A stretch of 64,000 nucleotides of DNA, from contig NZ_KE384398.1 of assembly GCF_000425585.1 (NCBI RefSeq), positions 62,001 to 126,000 of the forward strand, in the 5' to 3' direction. Of the stretch, positions 24,393 to 25,794 are shown in pieces. Under the pieces are notes generated by a model that had not been told where the DNA came from, did no database searches, and was given only the letters and a program-made list of their open reading frames with translations. The stretch comes from Terrimonas ferruginea DSM 30193 (GTDB lineage Bacteria > Bacteroidota > Bacteroidia > Chitinophagales > Chitinophagaceae). The number at the start of each line of letters is the position of its first letter. Position 1 is the stretch's first letter. A program made the translations under genes and the position numbers.

Positions 24393-24792
24393 GCACCTGG
24401 CGGCGGTAAATAGCGGAGGGTTTGTGCGCAATTCTGAAATTGTTAAAAATCGTTATATATCAAGGAAAAGCCGGATGTTTTGCATTAAAACCGGCAAATG
24501 TCCTTTCTTCCTTAACAAGCTCCGGTCATCGAAATCCTCCCAGCATTAACAATAATTTTACAACAATTAAGGGACGATCGGTTGGTGGCTATTTGGCAGT
24601 ATCACAAAAAGGATTATTTTTAGTGTCCAATGTCCTTAAAAAGTAAAAAAATCAAATTGTGAAAAACCACAAAACAACCCGCCTATTGCAATAAACTTCT
24701 ACACGTTTTTTTAACCGATTTTTTACAGACCAATATCCATTTTTCCGTGCATACTTGTGCCCGGTCGACAACCTAAACCTGTAGGAGTTTAT
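24393..24792. other. AT-rich gap between uvrA and the sigma factor
   Basis: No gene is supportable. The stretch 24630-24740 is rich in A and T runs. TACTTGTG near 24750 is a one-mismatch TAnnTTTG and may drive the sigma factor. Confidence 0.4.
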
Positions 24793-25374
24793 ATGAAAGC
24801 TTTTAGCAAGAAAACAGACAACGAGCTGATTCACCTTTTTACCGAAGGTCATCTCGAAGCCCTGGAGGCCTTGATTGTCCGTCATAAGGACAAGCTCTAC
24901 ACCTCTATCCTGTTCCTGGTTAAAGACAAGTATCTTGCCGAAGATATCTTCCAGGACGTTTTTATCCGCATTATTGATACAATGCGTAGCGGCCGCTATA
25001 CGGAAGAAGGAAAATTCCTTCCCTGGGCCATGCGTATTGCGCACAATTTATGTGTGGATCATTTCCGCAAGGTAAAACGTACGCCTACCATCCGTACCGG
25101 TGATGACAAAGACATCTTTGAAGTGTTGCACTTCACGGATGACACGGCTGAAACCGCTATGGTAAAACGTCAGAGCTACGATCGTGTGCGGAATATGCTG
25201 GATCATCTTCCCGAAGACCAGCGCGAAGTGATCATTCTCCGTCATTATGCAGACATGAGTTTTAAAGAAATTGCCGCAGCCACCAACTGCAGCATCAACA
25301 CAGCGCTTGGACGTATGCGCTACGGACTCATAAATTTGCGCAAAATGATGGTACAAAAACAGATCGCTTTATAA
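24793..25374 (+). CDS. ECF-type RNA polymerase sigma factor
   Basis: A 193-residue sigma-70 family factor. Region 2 includes KTDNELIHLFTEGHLEALEA, DKYLAEDIFQDVFIRI (the DIFQDVFI helix of region 2.2) and LPWAMRIAHNLCVDHFRKVKR. Region 4 has LPEDQREVIILRHYADMSFK followed by the helix-turn-helix EIAAATNCSINTALGRMRYG. The ATG at 24793, preceded by GTAGGAGTTTAT, is preferred to an earlier in-frame codon at 24757. No anti-sigma gene flanks it, which is common for growth-associated Bacteroidota ECF factors of this length. The candidate small RNA starts 10 bases after its stop. Confidence 0.93.
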   Translation: MKAFSKKTDNELIHLFTEGHLEALEALIVRHKDKLYTSILFLVKDKYLAEDIFQDVFIRIIDTMRSGRYTEEGKFLPWAMRIAHNLCVDHFRKVKRTPTIRTGDDKDIFEVLHFTDDTAETAMVKRQSYDRVRNMLDHLPEDQREVIILRHYADMSFKEIAAATNCSINTALGRMRYGLINLRKMMVQKQIAL

Positions 25375-25383
25375 GCTTTTCCC

Positions 25384-25391
25384 TATATTTG
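25384..25391 (+). promoter_or_regulatory. Bacteroidota -7 element before a structured non-coding segment
   Basis: TATATTTG, an exact TAnnTTTG, 10 bases after the sigma factor stop. The only thing downstream on this strand before a terminator is non-coding. Confidence 0.55.
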
Positions 25392-25397
25392 CACACA

Positions 25398-25562
25398 CGA
25401 ACGATCATTAGTTTTTGTTTTATAAAAGCTTGTCATCCTGTATCTCCCGCTGGAGAGAAGAAATTCGATATCGAGCAGTTTATCGGTTTGCTTGCCGTGC
25501 CGGCAGGCTGGTATTAGGATGACACCAAATTGAACCGGGCCTTTAGGGGCCCGGTTTTTTAT
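25398..25562 (+). ncRNA. Candidate small structured RNA (6S-like in outline)
   Basis: The segment lies between an exact promoter and a strong terminator (25533-25560: AACCGGGCC/GGCCCGGTT, then TTTTTT) and holds no open frame. An 8-base closing stem GTCATCCT (25432-25439) / AGGATGAC (25516-25523) encloses about 76 bases with smaller helices (CTCC-CGCT-GGAG; TGCCG-TGC-CGGCA; CGATA/TATCG). Length and a long stem with an internal open region resemble 6S RNA, but I cannot confirm the family. It could instead be a copy of a dispersed GTCATCCT-type intergenic repeat. Confidence 0.45.
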
Positions 25563-25740: not shown

Positions 25741-25747
25741 CGGGCAT

Positions 25748-25779
25748 AAAAAAAGCGCAGCCGAAGCCGCGCTTTTTTT
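25748..25779. terminator. Bidirectional terminator
   Basis: AAAAAAAGCGC pairs with GCGCTTTTTTT. It lies 16 bases past the stop of the convergent DsbD-N-like gene. Confidence 0.85.
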
Positions 25780-25794
25780 ATGCAGTTCACGCTC

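Follow-up and report, generated by a model that had tools for sequence, protein, structure and literature searches.

Type I 3′-UTR sRNAs, e.g., DapZ and MicL, are transcribed from a promoter of their own that lies in the 3′ end of another gene. FopS of Bacteroides comprises 14 paralogs in one genome (PMC7366714, PMC11697453). In the window, i.e., the whole 64-kb stretch of DNA that was analysed, the element downstream of an ECF sigma factor gene is best explained as a new RNA family that lacks a match in Rfam and belongs to the known kind of 3′-end sRNAs. We regard it as likely, if far from certain, that this sRNA family is expressed from a separate promoter where the sigma gene ends, or in some species as the 3′ UTR of that gene, and that it probably acts by base pairing. 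Promoter signals, structure and linkage to the sigma gene are evident at the level of the sequence. The features of the locus are as follows.

24793..25374, + strand: gene for an ECF sigma factor of 193 aa (stop codon included in the coordinates), with Pfam domains Sigma70_r2 and r4
25384..25391, + strand: TATATTTG, Bacteroidota-type −7 promoter box, exact match, enriched 5′ of the stem in orthologs
25396..25561, + strand: predicted small RNA of ∼165 nt, its extent taken from promoter box to terminator
25431..25440, + strand: 5′ arm of closing stem P1 (GTCATCCT), from the fold and P1 covariation
25444..25447, + strand: CUCC, last two C invariant (55/55 rows), modelled to pair with the GG of AGGCUG
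25490..25496, + strand: GCUUGCC motif inside the P1-closed part, here predicted by the fold to pair with GGCAGGC
25505..25510, + strand: conserved AGGCUG 5′ of the P1 3′ arm, [AC]GG[CT] pattern in 52/53 elements, also seen in the alignment rows
25515..25524, + strand: 3′ arm of P1 (AGGATGAC), from the fold and P1 covariation
25525..25534, + strand: conserved linker CCAAAUUGAA leading from P1 to the terminator, tail pattern in 43/53
25532..25560, + strand: intrinsic terminator, hairpin 25532-25557 plus U run, −20.1 kcal/mol

The box starts 9 bases beyond the sigma stop codon, and from its position the 5′ start of the RNA is predicted near 25396. A preliminary description had reported the exact box after an ECF sigma gene and a strong terminator, and both were recovered, the former by sequence match. 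The closing stem that it noted is likewise present; its length of 8 bp has to be revised to 10 bp including one G-U pair. Conservation, covariation, and the promoter and terminator signals lend good support to its proposal of a candidate small RNA. Model R2 matches positions 25430-25534 with 79.5 bits, a score to be read with the window sequence being one of the 56 in that model, and this is the sole model match within the 64-kb window. The sigma protein had no NCBIfam equivalog above cut-off among the 25 matches listed. Its gene has as neighbours a gene for a DsbD_N-domain protein (Pfam) and one that we take to encode UvrA. Further downstream, a near-perfect hairpin, GCATAAAAAAAGCG...CGCTTTTTTTATGC (25744-25783), lies between convergent genes and is probably a two-way terminator.

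No Rfam family matched the element at gathering score. Permissive searches of the window element gave scattered matches far below gathering (best E 0.17). Among the permissive matches obtained here and at orthologous loci, those to MicF, DLEU2_6 and amino-acid operon leaders, all below gathering, were judged to be look-alikes of the stem or the terminator. Among the papers listed by a search of the open-licence literature, none described a small RNA from Chitinophagaceae or Chitinophaga that adjoins a sigma gene. Away from the element, a same-genus genome carries a near-threshold match to Flavo-1 RNA (RF01705) at L003:1308-1407 (+), with 38.4 bits against a gathering score of 42 (E 7e-5).

BLAST searches of 195 family genomes returned 14 places at E ≤ 0.001. 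The orthologous sigma gene is found at twelve of these (L002-L013); at the remaining two, L014 and L015, just 35 and 29 query bases are matched. Covariance model R1, built from 14 sequences, found matches in at least 30 of 396 genomes of the order, a lower bound because 10 candidates were scored per genome. At all 30 R1 loci, the window locus included, the sigma gene lies upstream on the same strand (protein identity 61-100%). The models score the opposite strand too, more weakly, because the stem is palindromic; the strand of the element is fixed by its terminator and promoter box.

The sigma gene itself is much more widespread. In the class, 208 of 247 genomes have an ortholog at E ≤ 1e-50, with one match per genome among the rows listed except for two in G004, and in the family, 172 of the 195 genomes have one at E ≤ 1e-60. 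From the latter, 145 sigma loci were examined, one per genome, so that 27 genomes were left out and further sigma copies in G098, G171, G125 and G192 stand outside the count. The element is present at 70 of these 145 loci. R1 accounts for 56 of them (E ≤ 2e-7), 14 of whose genomes are the source of R1's own sequences, and R2 for 14 of the remaining 89, matched on the sigma strand at E < 0.001 (L280, L282, L287, L294, L295, L300, L304, L309, L317, L322, L323, L324, L329, and L331). No element was detected at the thresholds used in 75 of the 145 loci, among them two interrupted by contig ends (L260, L272) and three with weak scores of E 0.03-0.1 (L288, L291, L308); the element is therefore dispensable for the sigma gene.

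None of 56 loci of more distant orthologs gave a match at E ≤ 1; 26 of these (L183-L208) are outside the family by kinship and L149-L178 were placed by name, of which L157 may be family member G052. On the sigma strand, 16 of the 50 named loci (L099-L148) reach a score of E ≤ 0.01, with Terrimonas (L103), Flavihumibacter (L106), Paracnuella (L107), Pinibacter (L110), Flavisolibacter (L132) and Niabella (L143) represented. The records of Ferruginibacter (L117, L128), Segetibacter (L115) and Chitinophaga (L124, L125) gave no score. By eye, GCTTGCC and a hairpin, without the closing stem, directly follow the sigma stop codon in L272, L273, L281, L283, L286, L124 and L125, a possible reduced form of the element.

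The whole unit folds with −61.2 kcal/mol (z −4.73), which none of 200 shuffles equalled, and the signal is weaker for the stem part by itself (z −2.11, with 6 of 200 shuffles as good); a large share of the whole-unit signal is due to the terminator. Across relatives, P1 extends over 10-14 bp. In 55 distinct aligned sequences, 93.8% of the cells of a 19-pair structure are paired and 13 of the 19 pairs show changes on both sides, values that lean towards the structure because the alignment was fitted to the model, with a margin that is nonetheless large. Not one of 500 shuffles matched the real alignment on any of five measures. When the pairing partner was displaced by 1-3 columns, the paired share fell to 19-58%.

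The conserved core consists of P1, an inner loop with CUCC facing AGG[C/U]UG, a short variable helix, an inner part mostly carrying GCUUGCC, and the linker CC[A/U]AAUUGAA, which leads to the terminator. GCTTG occurs in 36 of 53 elements and TTGC[CT] in 45 of 53. In the 36 motif-bearing sequences, GCUUGC[C/U] has a mean unpaired probability of 0.65, compared to 0.46 for the whole inner part. In the window copy the motif is predicted to be paired within a hairpin stem, and individual element folds vary from sequence to sequence.

Promoter, terminator and length counts refer to 53 of the 56 element loci, since L225, L246 and L341 could not be parsed by pattern and were dropped. Of the 53 loci, 22, representing 13 genera, have TAnnTTTG 16-60 nt 5′ of P1, compared to a mean of 1.2 and a maximum of 5 in 500 rounds of mononucleotide shuffling, and to 4 of 53 on the opposite strand (last 60 nt); these shuffle controls are generous because relatives were not thinned. 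The exact box is absent from −60..−16 in the other 31 loci. Eight of the 22 box loci, from four genera, show the arrangement TTG-N19-21-TAnnTTTG, in which the final codons of the sigma gene supply the TTG; this fits the Bacteroidota housekeeping promoter described in PMC7366714. The window species has no TTG at −33 upstream of TATATTTG. Downstream of the element, a terminator was detected in 52 of 53 loci (the exception being L242), but in only 5 of 51 control windows.

A further arrangement was seen between the sigma stop codon and the element in L237, L244, L250, L251, L252, L253, L255, L262, L263 and L352, where GGGAACGG (GCGAATGG in L250) is followed ∼9-11 nt on by TAnnTTT[G/A]. GGGAACGG 5′ of the box recalls ECF −35 boxes. 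This promoter-like arrangement might be read by the ECF sigma factor itself, which is only a lead.

The preliminary description had noted ∼165 non-coding bases, which was confirmed. The lengths of the elements spread over all three modulo-3 classes (17/16/20) and therefore mark the element as non-coding. A small protein was rejected, as lengths are no multiples of three and all + frames of the window copy contain stops. According to a crude test, the longest downstream frame lies on the opposite strand in 30 of the 53 loci, on the same strand in 9, and is undecided in 14; the element is thus hardly a leader of the next gene, and an attenuator at this position is unlikely.

We propose that the RNA would be transcribed from its own housekeeping-type promoter, or, where P1 begins 5-11 bases after the stop codon, would be a piece of the sigma mRNA. 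P1 and the terminator would stabilise the RNA, and a short C/U-rich motif (GCUUGCC or CUCC) could base pair with target mRNAs, so that base pairing might tie the output of the sigma factor to post-transcriptional control. Several observations count against this explanation: an RNA that acted in trans alone would not usually be bound so strictly to a single gene, 31 of 53 loci lack the exact box, the window species lacks the −33 TTG, 75 of 145 loci show no element, and GCUUGCC is predicted to be paired in the window species.

The sigma mRNA itself was considered as a partner. Pairing of the inner part with the sigma 5′ leader gave a mean of −17.9 kcal/mol for own combinations and −18.7 kcal/mol for cross combinations. 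Pairing with the own leader was rejected, since it is slightly worse than with swapped ones and 97% of permutations were lower, as calculated for the part inside P1 only. Pairing of CUCC with the sigma ribosome site was also rejected, as CUCC by eye does not track the two forms of this site, GGAG or GAAG. The leader has a structure of its own in the window species, a 13-bp stem (24691-24703 with 24780-24792) that covers the bases up to the start codon. Of 39 orthologous leaders, 21 fit [A]CT[TC]CTAC...GTAG[AG]AG, and AATATCC is retained in the loop of many. The consensus fold of the 39 leaders gave no structure. We regard the leader stem as a candidate translational switch.

The main rival explanation is that the element acts in cis as a 3′ UTR structure of the sigma mRNA, serving stability, termination, or as a protein-binding site that controls sigma expression, with no separate RNA being made. 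The invariable sigma linkage (30/30) is what one would expect in this case, and the sigma gene of the window species has the 5′ leader stem as well. Moreover, only 5-11 bases separate the stop codon from the start of P1 in L211, L212, L236 and L247, where −60..−16 contains no TAnnTTTG; P1 must therefore be part of the sigma mRNA there. Against this stand the enrichment of the promoter box just 5′ of the stem, the TTG at the right spacing in the eight loci of four genera, and a terminator detected between sigma and the element in L237, L242 and L244. Taken together, we consider a purely cis-acting structure unlikely, if still a serious competitor.

We also considered a reading in which the RNA binds protein and is dedicated to the ECF sigma factor or its holoenzyme, whose sigma activity it would tune in place of an anti-sigma protein. 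No anti-sigma protein was seen adjoining the sigma gene among its neighbours in the window. We rate this reading as improbable.

Still less probable is that the element is a diverged 6S RNA, relocated beside a sigma gene, which would sequester RNA polymerase; the preliminary description had raised a likeness to 6S RNA. The element is closed by a stem and has roughly the right size. Under stricter filters, RF00013 matched none of the 149 genomes searched in the order, whose 6S RNA is thus unlisted. For RF01685, seven out of 198 genomes in the class gave a match at E ≤ 0.001, and one of these matches exceeded the cut-off. Six of its matches (L032-L037), in other families, adjoin a gene that we take to be rny, with what is presumably zapA on the other side. 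In a survey of 30 loci upstream of rny, two of which (L058, L067) were uninformative because of coding sequence, no 6S-Flavo-like element was seen by eye 5′ of rny in the readable relatives, an observation in favour of this reading. Against it, the window genome has no match to RF00013, nor to RF01685 in a search whose controls were silent too, and permissive scans of the window sequence and 22 orthologous loci gave no match to either model. A genome of the same order but another family (G333) has a weak RF01685 match elsewhere (L038; 38 bits, below cut-off), and 75 of 145 family loci do without the element. Regarding anatomy, the core consists of P1 and a short variable inner helix in place of two long helices flanking a large central bubble. 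The shortest whole model match is just 67 nt (L241), with an inner part that is very short by eye and therefore has no second long helix around a central bubble. Thus, the 6S RNA of the order is unlisted or nearly so in Rfam, the element lacks a 6S build, and 6S was rejected on model scores and anatomy.

The preliminary description also pointed to dispersed intergenic repeats; the GTCAT..ATGAC ends resemble palindromic repeats of this kind. BLAST of the whole genome gave one match at E ≤ 0.001 and three further weak ones at E ≤ 1. The ends pattern GTCATYCT...AGRATGAC, counted on both strands because it is palindromic, occurs at one place in this genome and, among 19 genomes, at one place each in 3, always at the sigma-linked element, and nowhere in 16. 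A repeat located here by chance is hardly credible and was rejected, since despite its repeat-like ends and two adjacent model matches in L331 the element is single copy, by which this alternative fails its own test, and adjoins the sigma gene at all 30 matches in 396 genomes.

The favoured explanation, a small RNA with its own promoter, thus concerns a strongly covarying RNA family without a match in Rfam that is found at about half of the family sigma loci examined. The ECF sigma factor to which it is linked is conserved throughout the class, and carriers include the named isolates Pinibacter aurantiacus, Paracnuella aquatica and Niabella defluvii, so that it is directly testable.

GibS and FopS of Bacteroides (PMC7366714, PMC11697453) are, like the element, sRNAs of Bacteroidota; unlike FopS, the element occurs as a single copy and keeps to one sigma gene. 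With 6S RNA (RF00013) and 6S-Flavo (RF01685), the latter from the same class, it shares the build of a small RNA closed by a long stem, but it differs from both in the lack of a model score, in its neighbourhood, and in having no two helices around a central bubble. In contrast to type I 3′-UTR sRNAs, the element comes from a different phylum, carries a covarying closing stem of 10-14 bp, and has no known target or chaperone. Like them, it has an intrinsic terminator of its own (52/53 loci) and a conserved linkage to its host gene, and a predicted promoter box lies where the coding region ends or directly behind it.
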